DNA from: Ectocarpus siliculosus
Lineage: Eukaryota > Sar > Phaeophyceae > Ectocarpales > Ectocarpaceae
Assembly: GCA_000310025.1 (NCBI GenBank)
Contig: FN649741.1
Location: 7,010,718 to 7,073,830, forward strand
DNA length: 63,113 bases
Reading direction: 5' to 3'
The notes beneath the pieces are model-generated. The model worked only from the letters and a program-made list of their open reading frames with translations, was not told the origin of the DNA and did no database searches. Of this stretch, positions 3,022-45,046 are shown in pieces. The stretch's first letter is position 1. Every line of letters starts with the position of its first letter. The position numbers and the translations under genes are program-made.

Positions 3022-3235
3022 AATGTATTTGTTCTCTTTCTTGTTGTGGTCGTGCAAGGAAGAGGAGGAGGCCACGCTCGACAACTGTTTTTTACACCAC
3101 TTGAGCTGAGTAGTTGATTCCGCGTGGAGTGGACTGGGTGTCCTGACGTTGATATAATACGAATGCATGTGTAATGGCGTGTGAGCGAGTGCGCGATTCA
3201 TCAGGGTGTTGCTCAATTGTTCTGAACCCCTTCTC
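3022..3235 (+). pseudogene. Orphan duplicate of the 3' end of the Rav1/DMX-like fragment (empty site of the pogo-like element)
   Basis: This stretch closely matches the last coding residues and 3' flank of the gene fragment at 28.87-30.89 kb. It encodes a hydrophobic end followed by SCKEEEEA and a stop codon at 3107-3109, then the same 3' flank. Here the sequence runs straight through GAGCTGAG-TA-GTTGATTCC at 3111-3112, exactly where the other copy carries a 1.8-kb transposon. Homology begins abruptly near 3022-3025 and fades near 3235, so this is a short duplicated piece and not a gene. Confidence 0.85.
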
Positions 3236-14548: not shown

Positions 14549-14549
14549 A

Positions 14550-15116: not shown

Positions 15117-15880
15117 GGATATCAATGAGGTCCAAAAAACCAAGAGGGGAGCACCGCAAGAAGTCAGTACCCTACGACACAGGGGTACTGAGCAACTACA
15201 CGGATTGACACGGTCAAGGGCTAGTGTAAACATACTCTAAGGTACCTGCATCTACCAGGTGCTGTTGGGAATGCAATTTGACTACCGTATATCGATGGAT
15301 TTGCACACCCGGAGGGAGCTGAAGTAGACCGCACAGATCGACAAGTTCTTCGCTGGTCTAAGCCGCGCAGTCGGGAGGGGGCTTATGCTGTTCCCGGCAC
15401 TCGATAGGACTGCATCGAACGCGATTTTCATGAACTGTCCTCACTGCTGCTATTGTTCAGTATGAACGGTGTGAGGGCTGACTGCCCGTCACTATGCCGG
15501 AGGAGCAAACCGAGCACGCAAGTACCCGGGATATGTTTCATTGAAACGGTTTGATGCGGCCAGGAACGCACCACCAAATACGTCTGGGCAGGCCGTCATG
15601 ACGGGCTCTTATTTACATGCTGAATAGCCTTTACAAACGCTGATAGGTTCGTTCCTAGTGCCCATCCACAAACAAAAGTGCTCTATCATATTTGCTACAT
15701 AGCACGTACTTTTGCATGTTCTCGTTCCAAGTCAACACAAGAGCTTTTCTCCCACAACGGTTTGCATACGACGCTATAGCTGGAACCGTTAGAAACGCAA
15801 TCAACATCAATGTCTGCTGGAGATACTCCTTGAACTAAAACCAAACAACTCGGGTCACAATATATCATACTTCCATCCAA
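15117..15880. repeat. 0.57-kb direct repeat, copy B with extension
   Basis: Lies head-to-tail with copy A and extends 190 bases further (CTTTTCTCCCACAACGG, GCTGGAACCGTTAGAAA, CACAATATATCATA). That extension is shared only with copy C. Confidence 0.8.
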
Positions 15881-15935
15881 ACACCTAAATGTGATACGTA
15901 GACTAAACACGAACGAACATAAATTCCTCGAATAA

Positions 15936-16155
15936 CATGAAAGTTTGTTGTCGAAGACCGAACATACTGTAGTCTATTGTGCACGGAAGAATTCGGGACA
16001 TCTCCTAGATCTACGCACGTATTTGGGTTCTTGTTGTGTCACCCTGGAGGTGTGTTGGTTTGGATGTCTTGTATCGGTTTTCTGGGGTCCCCAAAGAGTA
16101 AGGTGTCACGGAGTTCTCATTCTGCAGGCTCGCTGCTCCTGCAGCAAGAGTAGTC
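15936..16155. repeat. Inverted repeat, left arm
   Basis: From GAAAGTTTGTTGTCGA to GCTCCTGCAGCAAGAG. The reverse complement recurs at 16640-16855 with roughly 85-90% identity by eye. Shared landmarks are GTGCACGGAAGAATTCGG and TGTCTTGTATCGGTTTTCTG. Confidence 0.75.
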
Positions 16156-16229
16156 CCCTACGCGACTGGGCGCTCCGGCCAAGCGAGCTCCATCATCATC
16201 CCGCCCTCGTCCCTCAGCCCAGTGAGAAA

Positions 16230-16373
16230 AAACTACGACATGTTTGCTAGCTATGGTCCGAACTTCGATGTAGCTAGCTGCTGCCCTCCCGCGTGACCCT
16301 CCGAAGCGGGCTGGGTGTTACACATTGTGTATTCCTGGATTGAGTCCAGTGGACACGCGTCTATCAAACTACT
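16230..16373. repeat. 0.15-kb direct repeat, copy 1
   Basis: AAAAAACTACGACATGTTTG to GACACGCGTCTATCAAACT. It is repeated in the same orientation at 16489-16649. Confidence 0.8.
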
Positions 16374-16488
16374 ACTCTGGAACCCGACAGCCCGTGTGGT
16401 ATGTGCTTGAAACAATGAGTGGGTCCTCCCTCGTAACATTCTCTCCTATCCCCTACCTTCGAAAGAAAAGGGGTGGGTAGGCGGGGAA

Positions 16489-16649
16489 AAAACTACGACA
16501 TGTTTGCTAGCTATGGTTCGAACTTCGACGTAGCTAGCTGCTACCTTCCTATGCCGCGTGACCCTCCGAAGCGGGCTGCGTGTTACACATTGTGTATTCC
16601 TGGACACGTGGCCCTCGAGTCCAGTGGACACGCGTCTATCAAACTCTTG
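16489..16649. repeat. 0.15-kb direct repeat, copy 2
   Basis: Partner of 16230-16373, with an extra block around GGACACGTGGCCCTCGAG. It is joined directly to the right arm of the inverted repeat. Confidence 0.8.
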
Positions 16650-16855
16650 CTGCAGGAGCAGCGACGCTGCAGAATGAGAACTTCGTGAGACGTTGCTCTT
16701 TGGGGACCCCAGAAAACCGATACAAGACATCCGAACCAACACGCCTCCAGGGAGACACAACAAGAAACCAAATACGTGCGTAGATCTGGGACATATTCCG
16801 AATTCTTCCGTGCACAATAAAGTACCGTTTGTTCGGTTCGACAACAAACTTTCAC
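16640..16855. repeat. Inverted repeat, right arm
   Basis: Reverse complement of the left arm at 15936-16155. The minus-strand frame 17123-16446 runs through it but has no recognised domain. Confidence 0.75.
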
Positions 16856-17627
16856 TTTTTGTTTTTCGAATTACCTTGATTGCTATTTTCCGTGGCCTAC
16901 GGAAGGAGACTTCCCCCGTACCACACGTTCCGCACGGCACAAAGCATCCGCGGCATCCTAACGTGTCTCTGCTAATAAAACACAAATATCTCCCTCCGAA
17001 TACCACAAGACGGGACGATTGAGCCTCCCAATGGTACGCACTACCATTCAGAAAACACCCAATTCCAAGTCGTGCGACATCTGCTTCGGCAGACAACATA
17101 GGAAACGTCCCAATAAGAAACATGATTGTGCGATATCCCGAGACAAAAGAAACAAGGGGTAGAAGCTGGGGGGGCGTGTGCCAAAGAAACGTCCCAATGC
17201 TGCCATGTTCCCTTCTCCCACCTCCTACCTAGCTCATGTCATGTGATTTTTTGGGGCGGAGAGTTGTTATTTTCGCGGTGCCCCCCGCGCCCCAGCGCCG
17301 CCGCGGGTTGCGCAACCCACTGCTGCTGTACATCTGTACTGCCACAACCCCCAATGTTCGCAACACCGAGCTGTCGGTTTAATGCTGAATGAAGGCTTTT
17401 GATGTGTTGTTTTCTTCGCCATCAGAAATAAGATTAAACAGCAGGAATAGGAGAATCAGCAGGACGCGACAGCCCAAAGGAAAAAGAAATCCGTTTTAGG
17501 AAATTGACCGACTTCGGCTGGTCCTTCTGCCCAGAATAAGGAATTGAGGCTCGACGCGATTTTGACGTTTCTTATCTCCAGGCCCTATCTGTAAACAACG
17601 AAAAAATCCAGTTCACACCGCAAAGTG

Positions 17628-18250
17628 TTTACCAGGTGCTGTTGGGAGTGTGATTTGGCTACCGTATGTCGAGAGATTTGCACACCCGGAGGGAGCTTAA
17701 GTTGGCCGCACAGATCGACAAGTTCTTCGCTGGTGTAAGCCGCGCAGTCGGGAGGGTGCTTGTGCTTTCCCCGGCACTCGATAGGACCGCATCGAACGCG
17801 TATTTACATGAAACGTGGTGTTGTTCAGTATGAACGGTGTGAGGGACTGACTGCCCGTCACTATTACCGGTATTGTTTCATTGAAACGGTTTGATGCGGC
17901 CAGGAACGCACCACAAACTACGTTTGCGCAGGCCGTATAGCGGACTTTTATTCACATGCTCGATGACCTTTGCAAACGCTGATAGGCCCGTTCCTAGGGT
18001 CCATTCACAAACAAAAGTGCGCTTTGATACTTCTACATAGCACGTGCTTGTGCATGTTCTTGTTCCAAGTACCACACAGGAAGGAATAAGAGATTTTCTC
18101 CCACAACGGCTTGTATACTACGCTAGAGCTGGAACCGTTAGAAATGCAATCATTGTCAATGTCTAAAATTGCTGCTTCGTATATGGACATGCTCCTTGAA
18201 CAAAAACCGACACAACTCGGATCACAATATATCATATATGTACCATGGAA
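17628..18250. repeat. 0.6-kb direct repeat, copy C
   Basis: Matches copy B from CCAGGTGCTGTTGGGA through CACAATATATCATA, in the same orientation. About 1.75 kb separates B and C. Confidence 0.8.
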
Positions 18251-21776: not shown

Positions 21777-22277
21777 NNNNNNNNNNNNNNNNNNNNNNNN
21801 NNNNNNNNNNNNNNNNNNNNNNNNNNNNNNNNNNNNNNNNNNNNNNNNNNNNNNNNNNNNNNNNNNNNNNNNNNNNNNNNNNNNNNNNNNNNNNNNNNNN
21901 NNNNNNNNNNNNNNNNNNNNNNNNNNNNNNNNNNNNNNNNNNNNNNNNNNNNNNNNNNNNNNNNNNNNNNNNNNNNNNNNNNNNNNNNNNNNNNNNNNNN
22001 NNNNNNNNNNNNNNNNNNNNNNNNNNNNNNNNNNNNNNNNNNNNNNNNNNNNNNNNNNNNNNNNNNNNNNNNNNNNNNNNNNNNNNNNNNNNNNNNNNNN
22101 NNNNNNNNNNNNNNNNNNNNNNNNNNNNNNNNNNNNNNNNNNNNNNNNNNNNNNNNNNNNNNNNNNNNNNNNNNNNNNNNNNNNNNNNNNNNNNNNNNNN
22201 NNNNNNNNNNNNNNNNNNNNNNNNNNNNNNNNNNNNNNNNNNNNNNNNNNNNNNNNNNNNNNNNNNNNNNNNNNNNN
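21777..22277. other. Assembly gap (501 N)
   Basis: A run of N. The 100 bases that follow consist largely of homopolymers (A, T and G runs) and are probably unreliable. Frames crossing the gap are not real. Confidence 1.
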
Positions 22278-26928: not shown

Positions 26929-28957
26929 AGGAGTTCGCCACCCTGTTCTGGCTGGGGCAGCCGGACCGAGCGCTCTGGGTGCTGTGCTACGGCCTCGTCG
27001 CCTCCGGCCACCACGACGACCCCTACGCCGCCCCCGCGGCGCCGACTGTCGAGGGGAAGGGGGTTTCCTCAACAGTGGCGGCGGCCAACTTGTCGGGTCT
27101 CGACCTGTGCAACCGCGCCATCGAGGTCGCGATGAGACCCTTCCTCGTGTCCAAGCTCCGGCAGATCGAGAGCAGAGGCAAGCCCGCCCGCGACAGGTCG
27201 GCGGTAGCGGCGGCGGCCGGCGGCGGTGGCGACGGGGCGGCGGGAGACCCCCTGCTGATCAACGCGCGGCGGGCCGCGGCAGCACCTGGCCCGGAACGGG
27301 ATGGAAATCTCGGCGCTGGAGGTGCTTGGGAGTGACGCCGGCGGCGGTTGGGCGGCGGAGCTCGCCGAGCGGCAGCTCGCCCGGCGGACCGGTCCCGAGA
27401 ACGGGGCCGCGGGGGGCGGGGGCGATGTTTTGTCCGGCGGGGGGGTGGGTGCGGGGTTCAAAGCCACGGCATCGCCATGAAGCTGATGAAACCCAAGGCA
27501 GGCGCTCCCGCAGCGGAGGCGGATTCCGGTGAGCTCTCAGGGGATATGTTTGGTGGGTTCGATGCGGCTCCGCTCCGACGGACAGCCGCTGCGTCGACCG
27601 CCGCTGCTGCTACGGTAGCGTCTGGGGAGCTGTGGTGAAATATGCAGTGGTTTTGATGCCACGCCGCCCCGGAGGAAGGCTGCTGCTTCAACCGCCGCTG
27701 CCTCTCCGGTAGCGTCTGGCGAGCTCTCTGGTGACATGTTCGGCGACTTCGACGGTCCAAAGAGGGGCCCCGCAGCAACCGCTCCCCCCAAACCTCGGCT
27801 GTCGAGCCCCACGGACGTCGCTATGGGCGAGTTACCGAGCGACCTTTTCGCCGCCTTCGACGCCCCCCGCCATGCAACGGCGTCGCCCCCTGGAGGTCAC
27901 GACCGGATCTCGGGCGGCGGCGGCTCGCAGGCGGGCGTGGGCAGCCCGGCAGCAGGAGGAGGAAAAGGAGGAGTTGCGGAGGGACTTGGACGGATGTCTC
28001 CGCGGTCCAGCAGCCACGGGTACTTCGAGCGGGAGGGACCGAGCTGGGAAGAGTACGACAGGCACGTAGCGCGGCGGCCTGGCGATTTGGACAGCGAACC
28101 GAGTGCGAAAGGAGGAGGGGGGCAAGACACGTGAGTTTGCGGGGGATTGATTTTTTCACGGTTAGCGAAGAGTGATGCGTGTTGGGGGGGGGAAGGTACA
28201 GGGGTGCGGGCCCGTGTTAGCCGGCAGCAGGTACTCGTAGATCGACCTCTTGTCTGCCGCTTACTGCCACAGGGATATGTCTTTTTACTTGGTTTTTCTG
28301 CGTTTCTTGCAAAAGTAAGAGATAGATTCATCTCCACCTTTCCACCTAACGCATGCATGGTTATTGTCTGGGGAAACTCGCCAGCCACCCGCCCAGAAAA
28401 ATACTGCTGTTTCTGTCTCCCCGAACGCCCTCTCTGTATGTCCATTTTTTTTATTGTTTGCCCCGTCCCCCCAACCTCCTTTCCACCACCAGCAGCCCCC
28501 TCGAAGCTACTCCCAGCTCCGGGAGTGCACACCCTCAGCAGTGGGACTTCTGGGCAGAAGACCTCGCCTACATACGAGGCGGCGACCAAGCGGCTTCTCC
28601 GAGAGCTGCGACACCTCTTGGGAAGCCTCGACGCGCTTGCCCCAACCGCGCCCAACATGGCCTTCGCTCTAGAGTCTCTGGGGGCAGCGGAGACCGGGAC
28701 CGGCTCGCACGGCGGCGTTGCTAGAGAGCGTCCGCGCGGTGGGGGAGAGCCTGTGCAAGGCGCACGGTCTCTCGGCGGGCGAGCTTGCGGCGGCGGCGGC
28801 GACGGGCGCGCTCAGCCACGCGTCGGCGGGGGGATCGAGGCGCCTCGGCGCGCTGTGCCTGCTGCTCGGCGCGCTGTATTTGTTCTCTTTCTTGTTGCGG
28901 TCGTGCAAGGAAGAGGAGGAGGCCGCGCGCGACAAATGTTTTTACCACTTGAGCTGA
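26929..28957 (+). pseudogene. C-terminal fragment resembling Rav1/DMX-like (rabconnectin-3) protein, frameshifted
   Basis: After an acceptor CTCTCCAG|CGC, the sequence encodes NPFQEFATLFWLGQPDRALW, close to the DPFLRSMAYW-type segment of DMX-like proteins, and further on GMEISALEVL (compare CPMLALEVL). These proteins regulate V-ATPase assembly. Four spaced units of the form GELSGDMFG-FD follow, with acidic-Phe motifs. An intron 28132 to about 28489 (GACAC|GTGAGT to CCACCAG) leads to ATKRLLRELRHLL and a C-terminal hydrophobic stretch before the stop at 28957. The frame changes near 27285, 27460, 27630, 28570 and 28715, and the family's large N-terminal WD40 part is missing, so this is a decayed partial duplicate. 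The family call is tentative; pseudogene status is firmer. Confidence 0.55.
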
Positions 28958-28960
28958 GTA

Positions 28961-30762
28961 CAGTGGGGGGCCCTCTATAGTGCCGGTTGAATAGTGCCAA
29001 CTGCCGGTATAGTGCCGGTAAAATCTCTCCACACAGAAAGCGCCCTCAATAGTGCCAAACGGCACTATTGAGGGCGGGCCTGGTATAGTGCCGGTTGGGC
29101 ACCACGTCAGCCCGCAATAGTGCCGGTTCACACACGCACGCACACACACCACCACACTCCCAAAATACAGACACCGTGCTGCTGCAGTCCAACACAGCTC
29201 TACGCAGAGGCGCACCATGCCGTGTGCGGAAGGTGAACTGTGCCTTCAACAGAACAGAACGCCGAAGGCCCCTCATGGCCACGTCTGCAAGGGAGGATGT
29301 GGCGGGCGGCTCCATGGCACTTGCGGCAGCGTGGAGGGTGACTTCGAAACATCCCGCATCTGCAGTTCTTGCGTCGCTGCTAAGACTGGCAAGCGCAAAG
29401 CGACCGCAGCTGGGGTTGATGCTGGGGCGGGACCATCTAAACGTCCGACAGAGAAAGGGGGGGGGAAGAAGGCTTCTCGCGCGCGGCTGAGCAACGCTGA
29501 CAAGGTTGAGGTCCTCAAGCTGCTGGATGCCAAGATTTCTCATGAGCAGATAGCAGATCGCTTTAAGTGCTCGGAACGGCTGGTCTGCAAGGTGAACGCT
29601 GAACGGAAGGAAGTGGAGGCTAAGGCAGCTGCAGGCGACGGAAGCCAGAAAACCGCACGCAGAGGAGACTTTCCGGAGGTAGGTAGAGTACACGACATGC
29701 CTGGCAATTTCCTCTCGAACGTTGTTTTTCCCCGCCATTTTTCAAAAATGCCCTCATGTCGCCGATTTCTACTGCTGTACCTTTTTTTTTTTTTGCCCTT
29801 CCTTGTTTCTTTGCCTTTCCCTTTTCGTCTTTTCGTATGTATCATATGGTGTTTTTTTTTTTCATGTCACCTCCTTTTTTTGTTATGTCTTTGGCCTTTG
29901 AGGTCCTCGATGTCCACACTCATAGACCTTCCGATTATTTGTCCTTGAAATTGAAAGAGCACTGTTGTGTACATATTCGCACCCGCTTTTTTTTCAAAAC
30001 AAACAAGCAGGCGGACAGTGATCATGAGGACACGGGGAGCGGCCGCCGCGCCCCACCGGCTTACGGTGAACTGTCTTCTCACTTCGGCGTCCTGGAGGTG
30101 GCCGCGCGGGAGAGTGGAAACGGGGACGCTGCGTTCCACCTATCGAAAGCGAAGATGGCGATGATCGCGGCGCATGCCGCTAAGGGCGTGCGCCAGACAG
30201 ACATGAGAGAGTTTGTTGATGAGTGAGGGGGGGACAGCTATACCGCAGTTTTTTTCTTTTTGTTTTGTTTTATTTTTGTCCGCTTCGTTGCTGGCGCGTT
30301 TATTGGTTTTGTTGGCGTGTCTCATCACGCAACATCGTAGGGAGGCAGCGAGGAACGTGATATTTTTTCAAGTATACTAAGTTGCACGGACAGGAGCTGT
30401 ACACGGGGTTTGGCTCCGAAGGTGAATTCTGCGCGTGCATGCGGGAATGGTTTCGCGGCAAACTCAGCTATCAGAGTGGAACCCACATTTGTCTCAGAAA
30501 AGGCTGCCCCTGCCGCCCACAAAGTATATTCACCACACTCGATCCACATGCTACTCTGTTGGCCTCGCAAATGGTAAGCGATACACCATGAACTCAAACA
30601 GCAGTGCCTCAGTAGTGCCAGACCGGCACTACTGAGGGATATCGATCACCCGAATAGTGCCGTTTGGCACTATTGAGGCACTATTCCCAGTTGTGCCGGT
30701 GCCCGCTATAGTGCCGGTGAACGCCCTGCGCACGTACCGGCACTATAGAGGGCCCCCCACTG
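28961..30762. mobile_element. Pogo-like (Tc1/mariner superfamily) DNA transposon, 1802 bp
   Basis: Begins CAGTGGGGGGCCCTCTAT and ends with its exact reverse complement; the perfect inverted repeat is 27 bp. It is flanked by TA at 28959-28960 and 30763-30764, the expected Tc1/mariner target duplication. Both subterminal regions contain repeated TAGTGCCGGT motifs in direct and inverted orientation. The paralogous sequence at 3022-3235 shows the same site without the element. The single gene inside lacks a DDE catalytic domain, so the copy is non-autonomous or has lost its transposase. Confidence 0.92.
29217..30226 (+). CDS. Transposon-encoded zinc-binding and helix-turn-helix protein (225 aa, two exons)
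   Basis: Exons 29217-29678 (154 codons, donor CCGGAG|GTAGGT) and 30011-30226 (72 codons with stop, acceptor AAGCAG|GCG) join in phase. The N-terminal region (residues 3-52) has a Cys/His array, C3, C9, H22, C24, C28, H33, C36, C49 and C52, like a cross-braced zinc finger. Residues about 84-135 resemble the N-terminal helix-turn-helix of CENP-B/pogo transposases (DKVEVLKLL, then EQIADRFKCSERLVCKV). The C-terminal 70 residues are helical and unrecognised. It sits wholly inside the pogo-like element, and a role in binding the TAGTGCCGGT repeats is inferred. There is no catalytic DDE triad. Confidence 0.75.
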
Positions 30763-30764
30763 TA

Positions 30765-32802
30765 GTTGATTCCGCGTGGAGTGGTCTGTGTCCTGACATT
30801 GATATACTGCTGTAAATACGAATGCATTTGCGTTTTCGTGTGAGCGAGAGTGCGCGACTTATTTGAGTGTTGCTCAATCGTTCTGCACCTCTCCTCTTAA
30901 TACGAAACATATTTTGAGTTACAAAACATATTTTGAGTTACAAGCAAGTTAACATTACAACAGCCGCTAGCTGCGCACTCCGGTAGCTATGTAGCTCTGT
31001 CTCGGAAGTAAGGCCATTTCGACTGTTGTTAGCTACGTAGACCAAGTAGACCGCTACTGCTGTAACGATGAAGACAAATTTTATTCCCTACCTTGGGAGT
31101 CAGTCTACAAAGCAGTAGTCTTCCACACCGGACCATCTGCATTCCAAGGATCTTCGATCGTAATCATGTAAGGATCTTTGATCGTAAATGTATAAGGAAA
31201 AATAATGCAAACAGAGACGAAGGGGATGTGTTGGAGATATAACCACAGTCGAACGGGATGGGTTGGAGTCTTTGCAGTGAGTGGAGGGAAACCGGCTGGG
31301 TACTGGGCTTCATTGAGTTTATTTAAGCCTGTATACATACACTGAAATCATGTATTGTACGATTTGTCCGTAGGGTAGTCTTTCTGTGGGCGGTTGGCTC
31401 TCGGCTACACGTCTACAAAATCTGAGCCTGTGAGTGATGAAGGCTGCTGGTGGCTGTTAAGTGTGAAGTCTACAGGCAGCCTGTGGGCGGTTGGCTCTCG
31501 GCTACACGTCTACAAATTCTGAGCCTGTGAGTGATGAAGGCTGCTGGTGGCTGTACGTATGCATATGCATACATCCGTAATACAGTAGTTGAGTTGTGGA
31601 ATCTTGAAACTGTGATCCTACAATACGTAATATATGCAGACTACAGCATAGGTGTACTGCTGTCTGCTGTCGTCGTCTACAGTCAACAGCAGACAGACAT
31701 ATAGCCGACTTTGCAAGTTCCGTGTACATCGCCGCGCCACTGCTCTCCCTGCTGCGCACAATCTCCCCTACAACGGGAAAAGTATAAGCAAATTTTTATG
31801 ATCATAACGATAGAACCCCGCCACGAGAGCTTCTGTCTCGTCTCCTCGTCGATCGAGAGAGTAGCTGTCGAGTGCATGTCGGTCAGGGAGCGACTCACGA
31901 CTCACGCTTCGCGGCGAAACCGAAATTTCTGACGAAGCGCCGAAAAAAGCCTCCATATTTTTTTCCTACTACTGTGTAGTCCAACTATAGAAATTATCGA
32001 CGCGCTCCGTGCCATCTCCCTCGGGAAGGCTTGTTGTAGGCGACGGCCAGGTTTGCTTTCCGATAAACCCACGCTACACAGAGACATTATTGCGCTGAGA
32101 GTTTCTTCGGAATCACACCCTTTTTGCAAGGTGAGAACGCTGTGTGGCGCGGCTGTGTTCGTCTCTGTCTGTTACGAAATTGTTCGGTTGATGGGTTAGA
32201 CGTTGTTGCAACAAGCTCATATGGCGTGTAGGGTATGGTAGACGGGGAACGCGCAACTACCGACTCATGGCCGTCGTGTGTATGTTTGAGGCAGTTGTGT
32301 CTTTCGAGAGTTCGGCGCATGATCCCCGGCAAGAGGTGTCGCTTTGCTTCCTCGAGCCGCGTGAGGTGGTCTCGTGGAAAACTGAGACGACACCCGTTCA
32401 ATTGCCGCTTGCTGCACAGCAGTTTATCCACAATAGTTCAGCAGCGTTCCTGCTGCACACACTCCGACCCGTTTGCCGTGGATCATGCCCACAGGGCAGC
32501 CCACAGTGACGCAACTCGTCCAAGAAAAGCCGTTTGGTCTGTGCAGGCATTGGTCTCTGCAGGCATCTTCAGTTATCGAAAATGTTGTTGGTTGTACACA
32601 CCCGCCGCGGACCCTTCTGCATTTACGTACGTTCCATCCAAAACAAAATGGTTCGCGCTGAAATGTCCAAATCTCACACCACTTGACCACCCCCAACGGG
32701 CTTGCACAGGATCTCTGATCCGCTCTCTGCGTGGTGCCTTCATAGACGCTACCTTCACCGTCCAAAACGTGCCGTTTGCTCTCGGGTGTGCTCGTGTTCA
32801 CC
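30765..32802. other. No gene recognised
   Basis: The first 125 bases are the 3' flank shared with 3112-3235. The rest holds a short duplication of ACATATTTTGAGTTACAA (30906-30941), a 97-base tandem duplication (next entry) and unassigned frames on both strands. Confidence 0.5.
31384..31554. repeat. Recent tandem duplication, period 97
   Basis: 73 bases from CTGTGGGCGGTTGGCTCTCG to GCTGCTGGTGGCTGT are repeated at 31384-31456 and 31481-31554 with about one difference. Confidence 0.85.
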
Positions 32803-35800
32803 ATGCTGCAGGTTGGCCGTGTGGTCACCATGGGCAAGGCAGCGGCAGGGCTGGCGAGAGGTTATTCGTACAACAACTGCTACAATGAAGACGGCCTGGA
32901 GAGCAGCGGGCGCCGGTGGCGGGCCTGGGAGGGACACCTTGCCAGGTGGGATGGTCAGCAGCAGTTCACAGCAGTTGCGTCTTGGACCCGGCAGGCTTGA
33001 AGCGCCGTAGGACATGCGGGCGTGTCCCTTGGTATATACTATTTTCAAGACGGCGTCCAGAAGACCGGCAAACCTGACCTTTGATAATACGGCGCATGTT
33101 TCCAGAAAAATAAGTAGCGTCCAAGGGTTAGGGTTAGAATGTAGAATGTTGTTGTTTGCAACTTCGAAAGAACACGTTCACGCGCACGAGGACTAAAACC
33201 TCCCTTGACTGGGACGGACGGGGTGTAACTTTTTTTTTTCTCGAACCATGAGAGAAGAGAGCGTCGGCATGGAATCGAACGAACAGATGTTACCTTGACT
33301 ACTTTTTACTGCCGTGCACGCGGAGCGGTGTGACGCGCTCTTCGAATGTCCGTGTCTGGGTAATGGTCCTTGTTGGTGAGCGCTAATCTAAAGTGATGAA
33401 AAAAAATGGGTGTCGGCCAACACCACAGACACAGATTATATCTACCCGAGCTACATGCATATCTCCAGAGGGCACACATGCATTTGTTGGCTTGCGCAAC
33501 ACGTCGCATGCGTCCGATTTTTGACCCATACTGCTGTACATGCGATATCTCTGGTGTGGTCGATTGTCATGCTTGCGTTTTCAGCTCATCGTATGATATG
33601 CATATGTCTGTGTATGCCTGGTATACGTTCTTACCGACCGCCTTCGCGAACGTTTTCTTTTTTAGCTACGAAATACAGAGGAGGTGTTCGTATCCCTATC
33701 CCTACCCTAACCTCCATCCCCACCTACTGAAACCAAGCTTAAGAATCTCAAGAAGGCTACTAGTTCTTACAGTACACTAACCTCGTGGTTTTCTGTCGCG
33801 CTCCCTATTTTGCTGTGTACGCTTGTTGCCCCCCCCCCCCCCGTCTGGGCAGGCTCTACGTCGTGAACTACGTTGCCGTCGCGGTGTTCGCGGCCTCCAT
33901 GTACCGCATCGTGCGCCTGTGGGACGGCTCCCTGAACCGGATGCACTTCTTCCCGCTCGCCGTGCCCTTCATCGGCGTCTTCGCCTCCATGACCTACCTC
34001 TTCGGCTTCTTCGGCATCAGCATCATCTCGGGCGTGATGGATCCCCCCTTCCTATCATCCCCAGCCCCCAGCCCAAAGGACAGGTCGGCGGCACCCGCCG
34101 CCGGCCCCGCCAAACACTTCTCCCCCACGGAAGAAGGCCCCTCGGACTACGGCCTGGACAAGCCGGAGGTTATCATCGTTGGGGCGGGGACGGCGGGGGC
34201 ATCGGCCGCGGCCACGTTCGCTCGACAGGGCCGCAAGGTGCTCCTGGTCGAGAGGTGCATGAGCGAGCAGGACCGGATCGTGGGCGAGCTGCTGCAGCCG
34301 GGGGGGCTCCGGGCGCTGGAGCGCCTGGGGCTGGACGCGTGCGCGAAGGAGGGCACGGACAGCGTGGTCGTGGACGGCTACGCGATCATCCGGTCCGCCG
34401 AAGCCGGCGGAGCCGCCGCCGCTCCCGGAGGGCGGCGGGATTCTGTGATGCTATATTACCCCGAGAGTGACCCGGAGAACAGGTCGGAACTCTTCGGCAA
34501 GGGCGTCAAGCCCGCCGCCGCAGCGACGGCGAAGGGCGGGGAGGCCGGCCGGCGGCCTTGCTCGCGGGAGGGGGAGGTGCCGCGAGGGAGAAGCTTCCAC
34601 AACTGCCGGTTCGTGCAGCGGCTGCGGGAGGCGGCGCAGGCGGAGCCGAACGTGAGGGTGGTCGAGGGGACCGTGTCGGCCCTCCTCGAGGGCGACGGTG
34701 GCGAGGTCGTGGGAGTTCGATACCGCGAAGCGGCAAAGGGAGAGGGACAGGAGGAGGAGGAGAGGGTCACCCGTGAGGTCCGGGCGCCGCTGACGGTGGT
34801 AGCGGACGGCATCTGGAGCGGCCTCCGAAAGTGTGCGAACACCAACCGGCCCCAGAAGCTGTCCACCTTCGTCGGGGTCCTCGTGAAGCACGCCGCGGAC
34901 GCGGCCCCGGTGCCGCACAAGCACTGCGGCCACGTCGTGCTGGCCCACCCGTCCCCGATCCTCATCTACCAGATCTCCTCGACGGAGACGCGGGTCCTCG
35001 TGGACGTCGCCGGCGCGATGCCCAGCGCCGCGGACGGCGGCCTCTCGGCCCACCTGAGGGAGAAGTCCGCGCCGCAGCTCCCGGCGATGTTCCGGCCGGC
35101 GTTCCTGGAGGCGGTCGCCCGCGGGGACGTCAAGTCTATGCCGAACAGGGCGATGCCGGCGTCGAGCGTTCACCGCCCCGGAGCTCTCTTGCTTGGGGAC
35201 GCCCTGAACATGAGGCACCCGCTCACGGGGGGCGGGATGACGGTGGCACTCAAGGTGTGTGTGATGGAGCGAGGAAGAGTAGCATGATGTACCGTTCGTG
35301 TGTGTTTTGTTGGACAGCGAGGGGGTGGGGGTGGGCGTACTCATTTGTTGCTTGCCTTAGTCATTTGACCATTGACCACGCGTCCCTTTCGAGACGGAGC
35401 ACCGTTCCTACCCCTACTAGAGACACCACCAACATTTGGGAGCTCTTTACGTTTCTGCCACAAACTCCATAAAAATTTCTTGCACATCTTATCCCCGTCC
35501 TCTTGGGCCTCTTGTGCCCACCATCTATCCCCAATTATCGCGATCGTTTTTTCGCTGTTGTCTAGTTTACCAAACTTGTCCATGTCACACCCTCTCTGTC
35601 TCATTTCCTCCTCGAGATCCTCTCTTTCCTCCCTGTACAACTCACACTCCCCGACTATGTGGGGTCTACTCTCCTCCGATTTGCCACATGGACATGTGTG
35701 TCTATCCTCCTCTTCCTCTCTCCTACGGCTGGTATACCTCTTCCTCCGTTCTGGCAAGTCCAGATCGCCTACTCGAAATTGCAATTTCAGCTTTTTCGCA

Positions 35801-38075
35801 CAGTCCATGGGGCCGTCCAAGTACGTCTTCATCCCTATCCCTTCTTTCAACTTCCCGTATATCTCCAAGCGGTCTTCGCTTCGTACAATCTTCCGAAGGG
35901 TTGCCTCCTCCCTACTTTCTAGCATCTCCTTGACTTTCGTCTTGAACCCCCCGAACCCTTCCGTGTCCAACATCTCCTCCTCGTCTCCTATCTCCTTCCA
36001 AACCTTCTCTACCACCTTGTCCCATCTGATTCCCTTCTTCCCTGGAGTCGCTTTTCCCCAAGCTGCCTTGTCAACCATGGCTGGTAGTCTATCGTCCGAC
36101 ATTCTACTTAACCTTGTACTGCCAATTCAACTTCTGCATGTCTCTCTTTGTTTTAAGAGAGTACATTCCCAATTCTGCTCTCAATACAGTGTTGCTCGTT
36201 GTACTTGAACATCCTAGCATTTTCTTGGCCGCTGCCATCTGCACCGTTTCCAGCTGCTTGACGGCCTTTTCGTTACCTTCCCATACCTCTCCTGCATACT
36301 CTAGCTTAGGTACAATCACATTCAAGAGAATACACCTCTTAATCCTAGTGTCTAGGTGTGGGTCCGTAAGGATCTCGTCCATCTTGCCTATCTGAGCTTT
36401 ACCCTTCCCAATCAACTTCGCTATGTGTGCGTCCCATGAGCGCTCCTTCGAAATCTCTACTCCCAGGTACGTATACTTGTCTACTACCGGTAGTTCTTCC
36501 TCCCCCCATTTCCATTTGAATTCTACAGGATTTTTCTTGTCTTCGTTACAGACCACTACTGCGCATTTTCCTACGTTCGCCGACAGTCTCCAATTTCGGG
36601 TGTATCCTACCGCCGCATCTATTTGTTCTTGCAACCCTTCTGGTGTTTCGGATACCCCCACGAAATCATCTGCAAACATCAGTCCGGACACACTCTTTCC
36701 CCCTACTTGGACTCCCTGTCTTACTGCTTCAACCGCCCTTATCAAATCGTTGATGTAAATCTTAAAAAGAGTGGGTGACATCGTACAGCCCTGTGCGACT
36801 CCTTGCAGTATATCCACGTACTTCGAAATTTCCCCATCCAACATCACCGCACTTCTTGTGCATTCTGTCATCTTTTTCAACATCCTCCACATTTTCCCCC
36901 GGATCCCGATGTCCCACATCTTTTTCCACAATCCATTGCGCCATACGGTGTCGTAGGCTTTTTGTACATCTAGGAAGAAACAGTATGCCGTACGCCCGGC
37001 GTCTTTCTTACCTTGGATAATTTTACTCAACGTATATACATGGTCTACACAACTACGATCTGGTCTAAATCCAGCTTGTCCTTCGCTGATCTTTTGTTTC
37101 CCCTCCAACATGTCTCCCATTCTATTGTCTATCATCTTGCCAAACAGTTTCCCCACTGTCCTCAGCAGGGTTATCCCTCTACAATTCCCCGGGTCAGTTG
37201 TATCCCCCTTTTTGAACAGGTTCACGACTACTCCTGCGGGGGGATGGGGGGGGGGTTGCAGGGCGCGTAGTGTGTTTTTGAAAGCAAGGTTGCTGTCGTG
37301 GTTGACCTTTTGTTTGCGTGGCTGAAGCTGTATACAGCAGCGTGTGGGCAATGTGTGGCCCGCGTTTCGAAGGCAAGTTTTCTCCGTGTTTGGCCTGCCA
37401 TGTGTACCCACACACAACCGCCCCCCATGTTTGTCATCTTGGCACGTGTTTTCTCGAACGACTCTTTCTTGTATGCTCAGAAGACAGCCGCCTGTCGTTG
37501 CCGATATGAAAATAATAAACCCTGCCGTGCGTGGTGCGTCGTTCCCCTTACACGCGACGCATCAGGACGTGGAGCTTCTCTCCGAGCTGCTGCGAGGAGT
37601 GCCCTTCCGGGACGCGGCCGCCGTAGCGTCGGCTGCGGCGCGCTTCCACGCGGGCCGTAGAGCCCACGCCGCCACCATCAACATCCTCGCCAACGCCCTG
37701 TACCACGTGTTCAGCACGCCCGAGGACCCGGCCTCCAAGGGCACCCGGGTCGACCTCCAGGCGGCTTGCTTCGACTACCTTAGCCTTGGCGGCTGCTACT
37801 CGGCCGGACCAGTCGGCCTCCTTTCCGGCCTCAGCCCCGTACCGTGGGTCCTGACGACCCACTTCTTCATGGTGGCGTTTCACGGCTGCCGGGAGCACCT
37901 CCTGCCGGTCCCTACCCCGGGGGGAGTGCTGCGCGTGTATCGGCTGCTCCACGTGGCGACGAAGATCATCATGCCCCTGCTGGAAGAGGAAGGGTCGACG
38001 TTCTTGGCCTGGTGGCCCTTCAGAAAAGCGATTCAGCTGGTTCTTCCCTGGGAGCACGAGAGATGGGAGAACTAA
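32803..38075 (+). CDS. Squalene epoxidase (squalene monooxygenase)
   Basis: FAD-dependent enzyme converting squalene to 2,3-oxidosqualene in sterol synthesis, normally on ER membranes. Exons 33853-35254 and 37566-38075 are firm: donor CTCAAG|GTGTGT, acceptor CATCAG|GAC. An exon 32803-32945 is phase-compatible (GCCAG|GTGGGA to GGGCAG|GCTC) but inferred; an internal ATG at 32830 is an alternative start. Together they give 684 residues. An N-terminal hydrophobic region (VVNYVAVAVFAASMYRIV and on to FGFFGISII) suits a membrane anchor. The FAD motif VGAGTAG lies near residue 158, and the second FAD-binding motif GDALNMRHPLTGGGM precedes the last intron. The final exon carries QACFDYLSLGG and the conserved C-terminus. 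A Gly/Ala/Glu-rich insert separates blocks in the middle. The last intron (2.3 kb) contains an antisense LINE. Confidence 0.9.
35330..37250 (-). mobile_element. 5'-truncated non-LTR retrotransposon (LINE) inside the squalene epoxidase intron
   Basis: The minus strand encodes a reverse transcriptase from the fingers (VVVNLFKKGD, NCRGITLL) through FADDFV (the YxDD-type catalytic motif) and a thumb/C-terminal domain ending at 35341 in a Cys/His segment (CPCGKSEESRPH). Frame 37250-36104 is followed, after a stop and a one-base frame change near 36103, by frame 36102-35341. The 5' half of the element (endonuclease and upstream frame) is absent, and truncation occurs just before the fingers in a G-rich stretch near 37240. 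The copy cannot be active. Its orientation is opposite to the host gene. Confidence 0.9.
35341..37250 (-). pseudogene. Reverse transcriptase, truncated and frameshifted
   Basis: Coding remnant of the LINE. RT motifs are in order: LFKKGD, GFRPDRSCVDH, DVQKAYDTVW, GVAQGCTMSP and FADDFVG. A stop codon at 36104-36106 plus a frame change separates the RT core from its last 250 residues. The C-terminal part includes GMKTYLDGPMD, a Cys-x-Cys/His motif near residue 125 of the second frame, and the end GRVVNGQMTKASNK. Confidence 0.85.
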
Positions 38076-39312
38076 TAGCTATACATACCTCCACGCCCGC
38101 CCGGCACGCGAAAACACCACCGGGGGCGATTTTTGCTAGAGAGAACCGTCTACATGGGTTTTACGCCAAGCTTTTTCTTGGAGGACGCCTGGCTGGCGTT
38201 CACGTGCGCGTTTTTCGCACGCGAGACTTACGACATGGATGGAGGAGTGGAATGAACCGGATTTATCTGCCGGGCGGAATAACTAGTGCACTATTAGTAA
38301 TATCGGCATAGTGGTCGATCGTACGGTATGTCTGTTGGACAAACCGCTCGTGTCGCTCTAGAATCAGGGTTAAGAAGACTAGTTTGTTTTAACGCTCTGG
38401 GCGGAGGGTGGTCTTCATGAGGGGGGCTTGCCTTTCCTTCTTGTAGGTTTTTAACACGCGGTGTGTGTGGTGTGCCAAGCTTGGCTACAGACTCCCGAAA
38501 GAGAGAGTGGTCGCGAACGAACATGGATTTCGTACTCCATCTCCGTCGGGCATGTTTTGTTTTGTTTTTCAGTCTCGGTTTTGTTTCGAAGTTTGTTTTG
38601 TCGCTTAGGACATTTACGCATGCAGGGGGAGCCTCACGTGCACGAGGGATATTTGTGTGTGTGTGTGTGTGTGTTTTGTTCTGCCGCCGCTCGTGTCGTG
38701 GTGATGACGTTTTCAATTGTCGTGCAAGGATTTTTCTAGGTGCCACCACTAATACGAAATTACCCGCTCTTTCGTGCATGGATGTAGTTAGGGCCGCTAC
38801 AATAATATACCGTCGTGGCCGCCTCTGGGGGCGCTAAGGTGCTTCTTAATGTTAATTTCGTTGTCCCTCCATAACTTTTGACTGAAGTGGAGAACAAAAA
38901 AAAAAATAACATGTTATTAACGCCCGCGAAGAGGCGCAAAAGAGTAGCGAGTCGGAAAAAAAAAAAAAAGGGAAAATTATGCCTTTCGCCGGGGCTCGAA
39001 CGTTAGTCCTGGGTCATTTTTGCACCATTTTTGTTTTTTTTTGCGTCGATTTTTTTTTTTTCATTTTCTTTTTTTTGGTTGCAAACATGCGTCACGTCGA
39101 GTAAAACACCCCCAAACACCGCACAAACGCAGGTACCCTTCACCTACTGTACTGTATCACCCTACAGCAACTTTTGGCAACGAGCAACCGCACAAAATAC
39201 GTGTATTCACACAAAAAAAAAAAAAACAGGTAAAAAAGCTGAGAAAATGTGGCGAAAACAGGGGGAAAAAAGTCAGTGCTGGACAGCACAAGGAATACAA
39301 ACGCATGCCTCT
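38076..39312. other. No gene recognised
   Basis: 3' flanks of two convergent genes (squalene epoxidase and the DDE transposase). It contains a GT microsatellite near 38650-38672, several long A and T runs (38890-39070), and on the minus strand a B-box-like CGTTCGAGCCCC followed by T runs near 38960-39003. Confidence 0.45.
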
Positions 39313-42300
39313 CTACTTCCTCCACGTGTTCGGCGTCGGGCGCCTGTGGGACTTGAATTTCTTGTAGATCTCCTTGCCCGTGGGTCCAAGTGCACGTGCC
39401 TTCAGGTACACGAGGGCATGCGTGTAAGCCTTCTTGCAGTAAGCCTGGACTACCGCAATGGCCTGTCTATCCTTCTCCGGTCTAAAGCTCAACGGCACGT
39501 TTTTGCGCAAGCATTCCATCGAATATGTGCAGTTCTGGCGCGTCCAGTCCTTCGCACGGCCCCAAACGAGCTCGATGGGGTTGCACTCGCAGTGGTACTT
39601 GGGGAGCATCACGCAGACTCCCCCGTGCCGCCGCATCAACAGCACCAGACTAGAGTCAACTTCCTTGAAGTCTCGCTGCTCTCCCAGAACATGCTCCATG
39701 CTCATGCTGAGGTCCTTCTTCTCGCCCGTCCCCCCCAACTTCGACATGCCCTTCTTCAGCAACCCCCTCTCGAACAAGATCTGCCGCATCCCCTTCAGCT
39801 TCCCGACATACTCCGACGGTCGGAGGTGCTCGGCGTAGAAGGGGGGGTCGTCCCCCCTTTGGAAAACCAAGTGCTGTGTCGTGCCAGCTTTGAGGAGTGG
39901 CGTATCTTCCAGAATCGTCACGGCATCCATCGCCGCAAGCTCTTCTCCCTTTCTCACTCCACCGAAACCCACGTTCATCCCGCTCACCCTTGGCGCGCCG
40001 ACCTCTAGGCAGTCATGGCAGGACGACCAGTCGAACAGGCACACAGGCTTGTGGTTGGGGTAGAGGACGGCCACCACATCCAGGACGTCGTTCGTGTGGT
40101 CCAGCATTTTCAGACCGGTCCAGTAGCCCTCCTTGTTCTTGCCGTACTCGAAGAGATGGAAGGACCAATAGTTGCCGTCGTCGTCGACATGCAGCATGTC
40201 GATTGGCCGGTACTTCTCTGGTTTGATGTTCTCCCCTCGTCTAGCTGCAGCGGCCGACTCACGGCAACGTTTCTTCCGGTTGCTCTCGGCCTCAGCTACC
40301 TGGCTCGGCGACGCCGAAAAGAAGCCAACGTTGTGGATGATCGTTCCTGACACCATGATGCCCTGGCCGGGTGACTTCTTTATTACCACACGCTGGTCTT
40401 TCCTGAACCACGCCCACTTCTGGTCGTCGTTGGCTGCCGAAGAAAGAAGAAGAAAACAGGGGCGGCCAAAAAAAAAAGAATCAGAGAGTGCAACAAAAAC
40501 GTTCAGTACTCTGCTGTAATGTACAGTACTCCTACACAGTACTGCTGTATGTGCGAGACCACTGCACACAACCCAACCTTGTCGAAGTATTTTTGCAACT
40601 TTAACTTCACGTGGTGGACGACAATTTTTGCATTGCTCTACAATATTTTTATGTTTTGACTTGACTTCCCACTAACCTCGGAAGATGCTCTCGTCCTGGT
40701 AGAGAAGCAAGGCCTTCTTCCCGTCCGGGTACGTTTTCTTGCTCTGTACTTTAGCTTGCAGGTCAGGCGACAGGTCCGCCAACGCCGATTGTAGATCGTC
40801 GACACTCACCCAGACACCGTCACCTTCCTGCATGCGGTCGGCCTCCGGCACTTCGTTCACGTCAATGCCCCAGGCCTCGGCTTCCTCGTTCGGCACCGGA
40901 ATCCACACGTCCATGCGGTCGCGAGCGTCGAACAGTTGCGGCAGAAAGTCGTTGTTCCGGTACTTGAGGGTCTCCGGGTCGTCGTGGCCGTCGAAGTAGA
41001 GACCCTTTTTGGCACCGTGGTACTCGCACCCTAGCTTCTTCAGCCATGCCGTTGCTGTAGACAGGGAGATGAAACGCTTCCCGGGAACGGGGGGCTCGCC
41101 ATCTTTCTCTGTTGGTTCTTCCCGCCGCACTCTCAAGCCGTCGAAAGGGTCGAAGTCCTCCGTCTCCAGCGCCTCCAGCTTGGGCATGATGGTCTTGTTG
41201 ATCCACTTGCGGAAATCTTCTGCCGTCTTGTTGGCTTCACCGCTCAGTATGCCGCAGTTGTCCAGCATCCACTGCTTCACCAGCTTTTGGATGCCTTCGT
41301 CGAGCTCCAGGAGAAAGGTCCGCTGGAAGCGACCTTTTTCTGGCGGCTTGATTTTGCCGCGTGCTAGAAAACCATGCTCCCAGTCGTTTACGGTTCCAAT
41401 GCTTCGTCTGCCCACTCGTGCGGCAGCTGCTAGCGCATCGGTGCGGTTGACCCCGTCTTGCTGGAGAAGGTACAGATGGAGCAACGTCATGGCCTGTTGA
41501 ACCACGTGGGCCAGCTGGTAGTTGGACAGGGCAGCCCCCGGTGCGCTCGCCTCGTCCTGTGGAGAATGCCGGAGGGAGAGAGCGAGGGTGTGGGGACGGG
41601 GGGGTCAAACAACTGTTGTCGATGAAATGAACGTTACAGTATTGCTTTCGGATGTGCACTGCACAGCAGAGGCGCCCATGGTGCTGGGCGGACGCAGCAG
41701 CAACTTAACAGCAGTGTTTTACAGCAGTATACTTATTCGAGTGGTGACACTGTACACAGCAGTACAGTGGTTAAAGGAGAAAGTAGTTTGCGGCAGTACA
41801 TTACTGCTGTACAGCAGTTCTTTACACACTCAAAAAAAACACTCACATCTTCCAGTGCCGCTGCCGCACTGATGGCCTTCTGCGCATCCCTCAACACGGT
41901 ATCAAAATACTCGATGCTGTCCGCGCGAAATTCATCCGCCGCCGCCTCAACCGCCCGTGCTCTGAGATCTGCCTCGCGAGCACGCTTGATCTTTTTTCTA
42001 GCCTGCGATGTGTTGTACGTGCCCTTGTTCATGTACCTCTTCATCGCCTCATCGGCCATCTCAGGCTCAGTTGCCTTCCACGCCCGCAACAATTCTGCCA
42101 GCGTCCCAGCTTGAAGTTCGAGTGCGCCTGGAAAGGCTTTGACGAGCTCCTCGCGCAGCATGGTAGCTCTTTCTCGCCGGGCCCTCTTTCCTAGGCTTCC
42201 TTTCTTCCTCCCGGCGCCCTCTCTGGCGCCGCCGCACCCTTCTCGCAACCTTTCGGCGCCTCCAACACCAGGTTCTTGAAGAGAACCAGGTGCGGGAGCT

Positions 42301-42629
42301 GCAAGTCTGACACCCGTTGTAACCCGGGAGGGTGGTTGCTGGATCGCTTCATGCTGGATGGTCTTTGCTGCAAGGTCTAACCATGTTTGCGCTGTGATGG
42401 TTCTGCATGCTTGAGACTCGGCGGCTCTGTCTCTGCCACGTGCACTCTTCGTGGTGAACGTCCGGCTGTGCCACTGAAGTAACGGCTGGCCGGCCTGGCT
42501 GCTGTGTCTTGCTTTCAGACCAATGCGGTACTTTCGTGGAGCCCCTCTGTGCACCTCGAGTTCTCCGAGCTCGTACTCAGCAGGCAGAGTTCCCTTCACA
42601 TGCAGCAGCGCATCTGTATCGGGGTCCAT
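39313..42629 (-). CDS. DDE superfamily transposase of the IS630/Tc1-like lineage (927 aa, three exons)
   Basis: Exons 42629-41847, 41556-40677 and 40433-39313 join exactly (donors GAAGAT|GTGAGT and CGAG|GTTAGT; acceptors CCACAG|GAC and GGCAG|CCAAC), giving 927 residues without a stop. Residues about 310-340 resemble a helix-turn-helix (ALAAAARVGRRSIGTVNDWE). The catalytic triad is visible as D549 in YQDESIF, D689 in LFDWSSCH and E842 in CNPIELVW, the layout of the large eukaryotic IS630-like transposases also common in fungi. The first exon is Arg/Lys/Ala-rich and may bind DNA. The frame is intact, so this could be an active or recently active gene. Terminal inverted repeats were not identified, so element borders are unknown and domestication cannot be excluded. 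Intron 1 is full of TACTGCTGTA-type motifs. Confidence 0.85.
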
Positions 42630-45046
42630 GGTCCCGCCCAAGATCTGTGGCAAAAGCGTACCCTGCACGCCCTGAGAAATTTGAAATTTTCCTCTGCTAT
42701 GCAGACGCTCGGAGGTTCCAACCAAACGTTTTTAGAACCCATTTTTTGCGGGGATTCCAAAAATGGAACTTTTTTTTGCGGCAAAAAAAGTCTTCGTCGT
42801 CGATTGCGCGTTTTTCCTATTTCTCGCCGATTCTATGAAAACGGCCAACCCAGCGTAGCTCGTGCCCATCTAATTTGCCGCAGCCAAAAGTGTGTTCATT
42901 CGAAAGCTCTCGTTCATAGCTTTCACATGATATATAGTTTGCTGTGTGAATCGTCTGCATAGTGGAGATATTAATCAATTGTGCCTGGGCTGGGGGCCGG
43001 AAAAATACCACTGTATAATAGTGTGGATTGTTTCTTCTGTCGTGACGTTCGTTCGTTTTGTTTATTTGTCGTCGTGTGTTGTGTCGGTGATCTAGGGTCG
43101 TGCCGTTGCCCTTGGGGACTTGTCAAAAATTGTGAGGCAACTTTATAGCTCAAGAGGTGTGCACGTTTGTTTGTGTCCGCGCATCTTGACCCAAACACAT
43201 AGTCTGGGCCCGCCCCCAGACGAAAAATTATCAACAATAAATGCCCGCTTCGAAGCCAGAGACCAAACGCTGCCAGCAGGACTTACGACTGTTCACCACA
43301 AAATATGTTAACATGACAAAAGTACACATGAACCACTTGCTGTGGCGGATCGTGTGTCGGTGTGTCCCTCAGAAGACATGAGTGGTCAAAACATGACCCT
43401 TCATTTAGCCATCAACACGAGGCTACCCACATTTCCACATTTTGTCCGGGGGCGCAGACCTCCTCTTACAGTGGTATTGGGAGGTCCATTTTTTGGTAAG
43501 GCGTTCTTGTCGCGCGCGGCTCGCGAATATCCACAGCTCACAGCTCACGCGGAGACGCGGAGCATCCCCGCCATACAGATAGCTGGCCCTGAGCTCAAGA
43601 GCAAGCGCCATCCCGTTTCACATGTGAGTTTCTAGGTTGCCGTGAAGGATTAGCAGAGGAAGTTCTCAACCAGGAAAAGTCCTGGCGTTTCTGCGTGTGC
43701 TGACTTCGTGGATGCCGTTTGAGATTGTGAGAGGATTAGTCACCAATGTCGCACCTGCCCATGTCAAGCAATGTGGGGTAACTTGACCGCTGTCCGTGAT
43801 ACCCACACAGCTGACACAGCCTTCGCCGTGTGTTTCGCTATACCCAAGCTTAATCGCAAGTTTGTCACACATAAATCGGAACGGTCACCTGCTGGGCTGT
43901 GTTGTTTTGGCGTAGACTTGCTGGGTCGAGTGAAGCCCCGAGAGCGTCGCATGTTTCCGTGCACTGCTGTATTGCGTAATTTGTAGTCTACCAACAGCAG
44001 CGATTGCTGTACATGTCTTGATCGGTATTCGAGCGAGACAGAGAAATTTCAAGGTGTGTTTAGGTGGGGACGCATCACCCATACGATTGCTCCACTTTCC
44101 CTTGGCAAAGTACATGTAGCACCACGTATTCGTTTAGCAAGCAAGTATCCGGGTAGTACAACACTACAACGTTTACTCTGGTCTGGAGACCGGCAGGCAA
44201 TGGTAGCCACTAGCCAGGCGCCCTAGGGTGTGCGGCTGAAACAGCTCCTGGCATCCGACTTGCTCTGCCTCGTTGCTGCTGTCGCCCCTGCCCTCAGTAG
44301 GAGGAGTGGTAACGGCCACACTGCTCTAGCCAGCTCCCCTAATAGCACTGCCCTGCCTGTGCCTTGGCCGCTTGTACATCGAGCGGCTACACATGCAACG
44401 CATTTTCATGTCGTGTGGACGGCGAACATACGGATTGGTGACAAACAGCTCGACGCAATAAATGAATCGAGCTGTGGGGGGAGGTTTCCTAGCTCATGTG
44501 CCCAACATCATTCTCCTGCTGTTCTTCATGTTGCACAACACAGACGCAGCACCGTGGCTGCCTCTGAAATACTTCCAAGGTTCGGTAGGGTATTGGAAGT
44601 GCCACGCATTTCACAGAAGTATCCGGTAGGGTATCGGAAGTCTCACAGAACTCGTCTGTAACGTTCTGTAGGGTAAATACCCGGAAAAATACCGCCGATA
44701 CCTCCTGCGGGTACCCTACAGAACACACCCTTTTGAAATTTCGTTGCCCCCCTCTGCGGAAAGTCTACCGTTGGTTGCGTGGGGTCGGGCTGACCGGCGA
44801 TCGTCATCTTTTTCAACTCTCGCGGGGTGGCCCCAGGGTTTGCTTCTTTCTCGCTGGGCCAGAACTACCCTGTCACATCTGCCTTTGTTGGAAGCACCAC
44901 AAACAATCACATAACACATTCGTAAACGACAGGCTCTTAGTACACCCTCCCTCTCAGCATACACATGACGAAAACGCCCAAATACACCGATCGCGCCGCC
45001 ACCCCATCGGCAGCTCTTCTCCTAGTCCGCAACACGCAACGTGAAC
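42630..45046. other. No gene recognised
   Basis: About 2.4 kb between the divergently transcribed transposase and PUS7 genes. It must hold their promoters, but no motif stands out. A 13-bp perfect hairpin lies at 44663-44724. Confidence 0.45.
44663..44724. repeat. Hairpin-forming inverted repeat
   Basis: GTTCTGTAGGGTA (44663-44675) pairs perfectly with TACCCTACAGAAC (44712-44724). Just upstream, CGGTAGGGTAT-GGAAGT occurs twice (44583 and 44624). Confidence 0.7.

Follow-up and report, generated by a model that had tools for sequence, protein, structure and literature searches.

A TA-flanked DNA transposon with an empty-site paralog, subterminal motif arrays and a predicted nuclease-free DNA-binding protein in Ectocarpus siliculosus

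The window, a 63,113-nucleotide stretch of DNA from the brown alga Ectocarpus siliculosus, carries an element of 1802 bp at 28961-30762, with TA at both borders. Its termini are perfect inverted repeats of 27 bp (27/27 identical): the element starts with CAGTGGGGGGCCCTCTATAGTGCCGGT and ends with the exact reverse complement of CAGTGGGGGGCCCTCTATAGTGCCGGT. The bases before the left end are GTA and those after the right end are TAG, of which TA is the duplicated part. The borders, the length of the repeats and the flanking TAs agree with an earlier sequence-only reading of the window.

28961..30762, plus strand: whole element, bordered by TA, with perfectly matched 27-bp inverted ends and an empty-site paralog
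28961..28987, plus strand: left terminal inverted repeat, 27 bp, 100% pair
30736..30762, minus strand: right terminal inverted repeat, 27 bp, 100% pair
28959..28960, no strand: left TA of the target duplication
30763..30764, no strand: right TA of the target duplication

The two ends further share an inner stretch of 26 bp as a perfect inverted repeat, and the 13-base tip of the element, CAGTGGGGGGCCC, occurs in exact form within the window only at these ends. As a check on chance, TA-flanked inverted 20-mers were sought throughout the window, with a spacing of 60-8000 bp, up to 4 mismatches and no 20-mers in which one base predominates. The 8 pairs obtained lie in three places: two in the element, five in an inverted repeat at about 15.97-16.82 kb and one weak pair, with 4 mismatches, at 475/4729. 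With so few places found, the element among them, its structure is not a chance arrangement. The data support a DNA-transposon insertion with a TA duplication.

The inverted repeat near 16 kb (15938-16854) has arms of about 214 bp that are 91% alike and about 490 bp apart, and is probably another transposon, with long ends. Around it, at 14536-18236, direct repeats about 420-650 bp long and 79-84% alike form three pairs. Elsewhere, a run of 501 N at 21777-22277 represents an assembly gap or a masked stretch.

The insertion lies directly behind an open reading frame.

28673..28957, plus strand: 94-aa stop-to-stop open frame, possible last exon of a host gene

This frame has no Pfam match and ends with the TGA at 28955-28957, and the target TA begins one base downstream; the frame may represent the end of a possible host gene. 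Read by eye as an intron, 28958-30765 would run GTACAG...CTGTAG, and a host transcript might splice the element out with the loss of four bases compared to the empty site (also by eye).

A sequence related to the flanks, and lacking the element, is present in the same window.

3024..3235, plus strand: empty-site paralog with the same flanks, a single TA at 3111-3112 and no element

When the flanks were joined with one TA and aligned to the window, they aligned with 3024-3235 across the junction (83.4% over 223 columns, E 3e-62), the only partial paralog in the window that covers the junction; a looser local alignment placed its start at about 3013. Left of the junction there were 82 matches, 4 mismatches and 3 gap columns, and right of it 104 matches, 17 mismatches and 13 gap columns, with an identical run through the junction that includes GAGCTGAGTAGTTGATTCCGCGTGGAGTGG. 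The site contains exactly one TA, no trace of the element and no excision footprint, which bears out the earlier claim of an empty site in a short paralog at 3022-3235. That claim extended to proof of the exact borders. The TA duplication and the empty site stand, but homology alone leaves the position of the 1804 inserted bases free to shift by 3 (G, T, A), which makes the claim of proof a little too strong; it is the symmetry of the terminal repeats that sets the border at TA.

The copy lies about 26 kb from the insertion site. It begins mid-way in the 94-aa frame and is therefore a fragment; by eye, it retains the last stretch of that frame (with a three-base difference) and its stop. Hallmarks of a retrocopy (poly-A, flanking repeats) were not seen by eye at the paralog. 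Since 21 of the 207 aligned bases (both sides summed) are mismatched, the duplication is not very recent. The order of events proposed earlier, in which the piece was copied before the insertion or from an allele without it, is also our simplest reading: duplication would have come first and insertion later, or the copy would derive from an allele that lacked the element. There is a third route, in which the element was at first present in the copy at 3024-3235 as well and was then removed perfectly. This is compatible with the sequence, but the copy has a single TA exactly and no footprint, so that exact repair would be needed, and Tc1/mariner-type excision normally leaves a footprint of a few end bases. 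We consider traceless loss highly improbable.

The two ends of the element contain dense arrays of a short motif, ATAGTGCC, together with potential hairpins.

28977..29124: left subterminal array, seven exact copies of ATAGTGCC, six on the plus strand and one on the minus strand
30612..30746: right subterminal array, seven copies of ATAGTGCC, five exact and two with one mismatch
29041..29076: left hairpin, 16-bp perfect stem and 4-nt loop, formed by two head-to-head motif copies
30607..30637: right hairpin, 13-bp perfect stem and 5-nt loop
30653-30674: second right stem, 9 bp

Allowing one mismatch, the element has 14 copies, seven per end, all within 170 bp of an end, and none in the nearly 1.5 kb between the arrays. 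In 300 simulations with a first-order Markov model of the element, exact copies had a mean of 0.04 and a maximum of 2, compared to the 12 observed, and copies with up to one mismatch had a mean of 1.09 and a maximum of 5, compared to 14. The rest of the window has 24 such copies (0.39 per kb). Five repeat units of the left array follow in succession at steps of 32-40 bp, and some copies stand head-to-head as palindromes. Folded as single-stranded DNA, both ends outscored every one of 200 shuffles (z -4.1 and -7.8); the z values of two internal stretches were 0.3 and -1.1. The arrays resemble binding sites, putatively for the helix-turn-helix protein of the element described below or for the full transposase of its family.

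Between the arrays, a spliced gene of 225 aa is predicted (29217-29678 + 30011-30226).

29217..29678, plus strand: predicted exon 1, with a C4HC3-like pattern (aa 3-52) and a helix-turn-helix (about aa 91-138)
29679..30010, plus strand: predicted intron, 332 bp, GT...AG, 40% GC
30011..30226, plus strand: predicted exon 2, encoding 71 aa before the stop, without a Pfam match

Exon 1 begins with the ATG at 29217, and the exons have a GC content of 60% and 63%, compared to 40% for the intron. A codon model, trained on a single gene, the 500-codon squalene epoxidase frame at 33785-35284 in the window (PF08491, E 5.7e-54), scored the predicted frame above the other five in each exon, with a narrow lead in exon 1 (-0.19 compared to -0.215). 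The spliced score was itself negative, at -0.12, compared to 0.29 for the training gene; it exceeded those of all 1000 of 1000 simulations, in which stops were allowed, and stop-free simulations came to 12 of 5000.

The 225-aa product has cysteines and histidines in a C4HC3 pattern at aa 3-52, with a spacing that we take to be PHD-like and that matched once the first gap was loosened. The same residues did not match C-x4-C-x16-C-x2-H, presumably the spacing of the EsV-1-7 motif. The only helix-turn-helix matches in Pfam were generic (HTH_23, HTH_7, HTH_38 and HTH_11) and all lay below the cut-off; HTH_23 gave E 2.8e-4 with exon 1 and 3.8e-5 with a 55-aa stretch, both below the curated cut-off. 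For exon 1, AlphaFold predicts three helices at 93-138, in a block with pLDDT 91-94 for residues 91-130 and 79 for 131-140; the model is otherwise poor (mean 62), with low confidence for the zinc-finger part. Foldseek, queried with the whole exon 1 model, poor parts included, returned 421 matches with E values up to 10, of which none reached 0.001 (best E 0.14). The best 50 of these 421 consisted largely of homeodomains and bacterial helix-turn-helix regulators; among the few remaining ones were a ribosomal chain and, at rank 48, an IstA transposase. A sequence search of solved structures had no hits, even with E allowed to 10.

Neither DDE nor other nuclease models matched at or near the cut-off in the two exons or in any stop-to-stop stretch of the element that reaches 40 aa (25 of 25), and TnpB/Fanzor models likewise had no match in the exons or in the stop-to-stop stretches. 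Matches in other frames to MIP-T3 (E 0.057), BAR_2 (0.078), HCV_NS4a (0.072) and dGTP_diPhyd_N (0.19) were far below cut-off and were taken as chance. We also set aside a PCNA-box-like C-terminus, QTDMREFV, which fits a loosened pattern only. The protein is thus predicted from its sequence to combine a zinc-finger-like and a helix-turn-helix part and to be nuclease-free.

The window holds other frames related to mobile elements. A minus-strand frame at 39316-40569 has a weak match to DDE_3 (E 0.0014, below cut-off) and, together with its neighbour to 41505 on the same strand, looks by eye like an IS630/Tc1/mariner transposase. As an autonomous partner of the element, this frame and the adjoining one are not supported: the tip CAGTGGGGGGCCC is absent there, and no element-like ends were found around the DDE_3 frame in 25 of the 31 inverted pairs of at least 14 nt in 37800-44500. 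One inverted pair of 18 nt (39137-39154 / 41760-41777, 83%) has TA-CAGT tips; these were rejected as partner ends, as they face away from the frame and are unlike the ends of the element beyond CAGT. At 36107-37417, on the minus strand, a reverse transcriptase (RVT_1, E 1.7e-31) probably belongs to a LINE-type element.

Searches beyond the window gave no relative of the element. For the predicted protein, 15 stretches in viral contigs and 39 in prokaryotic genome contigs matched the search pattern and none was confirmed; exact or slightly degenerate patterns of the element ends had no hits in either collection. For the DDE_3-matching frame, two stretches in viral contigs matched the pattern and none was confirmed, and for the reverse transcriptase none matched the pattern there. 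Nulls in viral and prokaryotic collections are expected for a eukaryotic element and say little. A literature search with the terminal sequence and motif strings retrieved no transposon paper, judged by title.

What kind of element do these data describe? Beside the observed ends, TA duplication, empty site and subterminal motif arrays, the element looks non-autonomous, because its predicted protein has no nuclease match. We consider it likely that it is a non-autonomous, TA-target cut-and-paste DNA transposon, IS630/Tc1/mariner-like, that inserted one base after the stop of a possible gene, either once a copy of the flank already lay about 26 kb distant or in an allele that was not itself copied, and that its predicted protein is the DNA-binding remnant of a transposase, with transposition dependent on a transposase acting in trans. 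A transposase encoded elsewhere would recognise the ends, cut in trans and insert the element at TA. The nuclease part of the full transposase would have been lost by internal deletion, and this is the simplest account of the 225-aa protein, which would be its DNA-binding descendant; this protein or the full transposase would bind the ATAGTGCC arrays.

Whether the protein still does anything can be read in more than one way. It might be an inert remnant of an ordinary internal deletion, in a large non-autonomous copy whose ends alone matter and whose full member lies elsewhere. No nuclease model matched in the element, and most Ectocarpus Mariner-Tc1 copies are non-autonomous (PMC12477816), but the spliced 225-aa frame has no interruption and its splice sites are plausible, although a young remnant would fit this too; we hold this reading to be close to evenly balanced, tilting slightly against. 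The protein could instead be a working regulator. It would then compete with the full transposase for binding at the subterminal sites and so repress or direct transposition, in the manner of the KP protein of P elements (PMC7776569). The open spliced frame has some coding bias, it encodes a zinc-finger-like/helix-turn-helix part and is nuclease-free, and 14 repeated sites lie at the element ends. Against these points, the reading draws on a single copy, and a recent deletion derivative would look identical, and we regard a working regulator as rather unlikely. A broader proposal, that a TA-target family, perhaps algal, has its own nuclease-free zinc-finger/helix-turn-helix protein that reads seven ATAGTGCC per end and controls the transposase of other elements in trans, is speculative and less likely again; if true, it would be a KP-like self-regulator in the Tc1/mariner world. 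The likelihoods of these rival readings overlap and do not sum to one.

With the likely reading, a non-autonomous TA-target transposon, the insertion is clean and otherwise ordinary, and its gene for a nuclease-free DNA-binding protein is a little unusual. The ATAGTGCC arrays and the predicted spliced gene are newly described here. A filled and an empty site in one window give the ends and the target duplication without a second genome, and the paired sites are a useful anchor for annotating the repeat family of the element. A nuclease-free protein with seven sites per end makes a simple, testable case in which a transposon may regulate itself.

The sequence-only reading had called the element pogo-like. 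Its TA duplication, short perfect ends (27 bp), length of 1802 bp and helix-turn-helix do fit the pogo superfamily, in which elements of 1.2-5.2 kb have TA, TAA or TAAA duplications and ends mostly of up to 40 bp (PMC7386202). Pogo transposases, however, are 300-977 aa long and combine a DDE domain with named DNA-binding motifs (CENP-B_N, HTH_ABP1_N, HTH_Tnp_Tc5, BrkDBD and HTH_psq); Stramenopiles are among their hosts (PMC7386202). The protein of the element has 225 aa, and its Pfam matches include none of these five models (E allowed to 10, with the HMMER filters dropping most matches above about 0.1), nor DDE_1 in the exons or the 25 of 25 stretches. The element also differs in its dense subterminal motif arrays, which the description of pogo consulted here (PMC7386202) does not mention. 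The name is therefore not borne out, given these DNA-binding models, the DDE domain and the protein length. It is a fair possibility, though one that we lean against, that the element is a true member of the pogo superfamily whose DNA-binding part has diverged and whose DDE domain has been lost; the DNA-binding part of Mover is likewise undetectable (PMC7386202). Judged by its sequence, the element appears to behave as a TA-target (Tc1/mariner-group) transposon and should not be classed as pogo. We take its CAGT tip to be equally compatible with pogo and Tc1.

A TA duplication at an exact empty site was found for this element; it is one mark of Tc1/mariner in the wide sense, another being movement by a DDE/D transposase of that family. 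Its cysteine/histidine pattern is unlike the EsV-1-7 spacing assumed above, and in this it differs from the Ectocarpus transposase TcMar-2_Ec32, which carries an extra EsV-1-7 domain, a possible zinc finger, at its N-terminus (PMC12477816). Ectocarpus has 17 Mariner-Tc1 families, in which most copies are non-autonomous, and 51 unclassified DNA families (PMC12477816). Compared by description only, the element shares with the former the Tc1/mariner group and the mostly non-autonomous copies, and it may belong to a family already catalogued in that genome (PMC12477816).

PIF/Harbinger elements may encode a DNA-binding protein in a gene of its own, and the element resembles them in its predicted gene for such a protein. 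It differs in its TA duplication and its one predicted gene, as PIF/Harbinger elements in Ectocarpus have a three-base duplication (TNA or ANT) and their autonomous members have two tail-to-tail genes (PMC12477816). TA-flanked Fanzor elements with variable ends are present in an Ectocarpus virus (PMC3627910). P elements have perfect ends of 31 bp and subterminal inverted repeats, and small non-autonomous members may code for a repressor, for example the KP protein of 207 aa (PMC7776569). They differ from the element, which has TA, in an 8-bp target duplication and a THAP-type binding domain (PMC7776569). By analogy, the KP-type P element is nevertheless the nearest working parallel: it too is small, with perfect ends of about 30 bp, subterminal repeats and a short, nuclease-free DNA-binding protein (PMC7776569).
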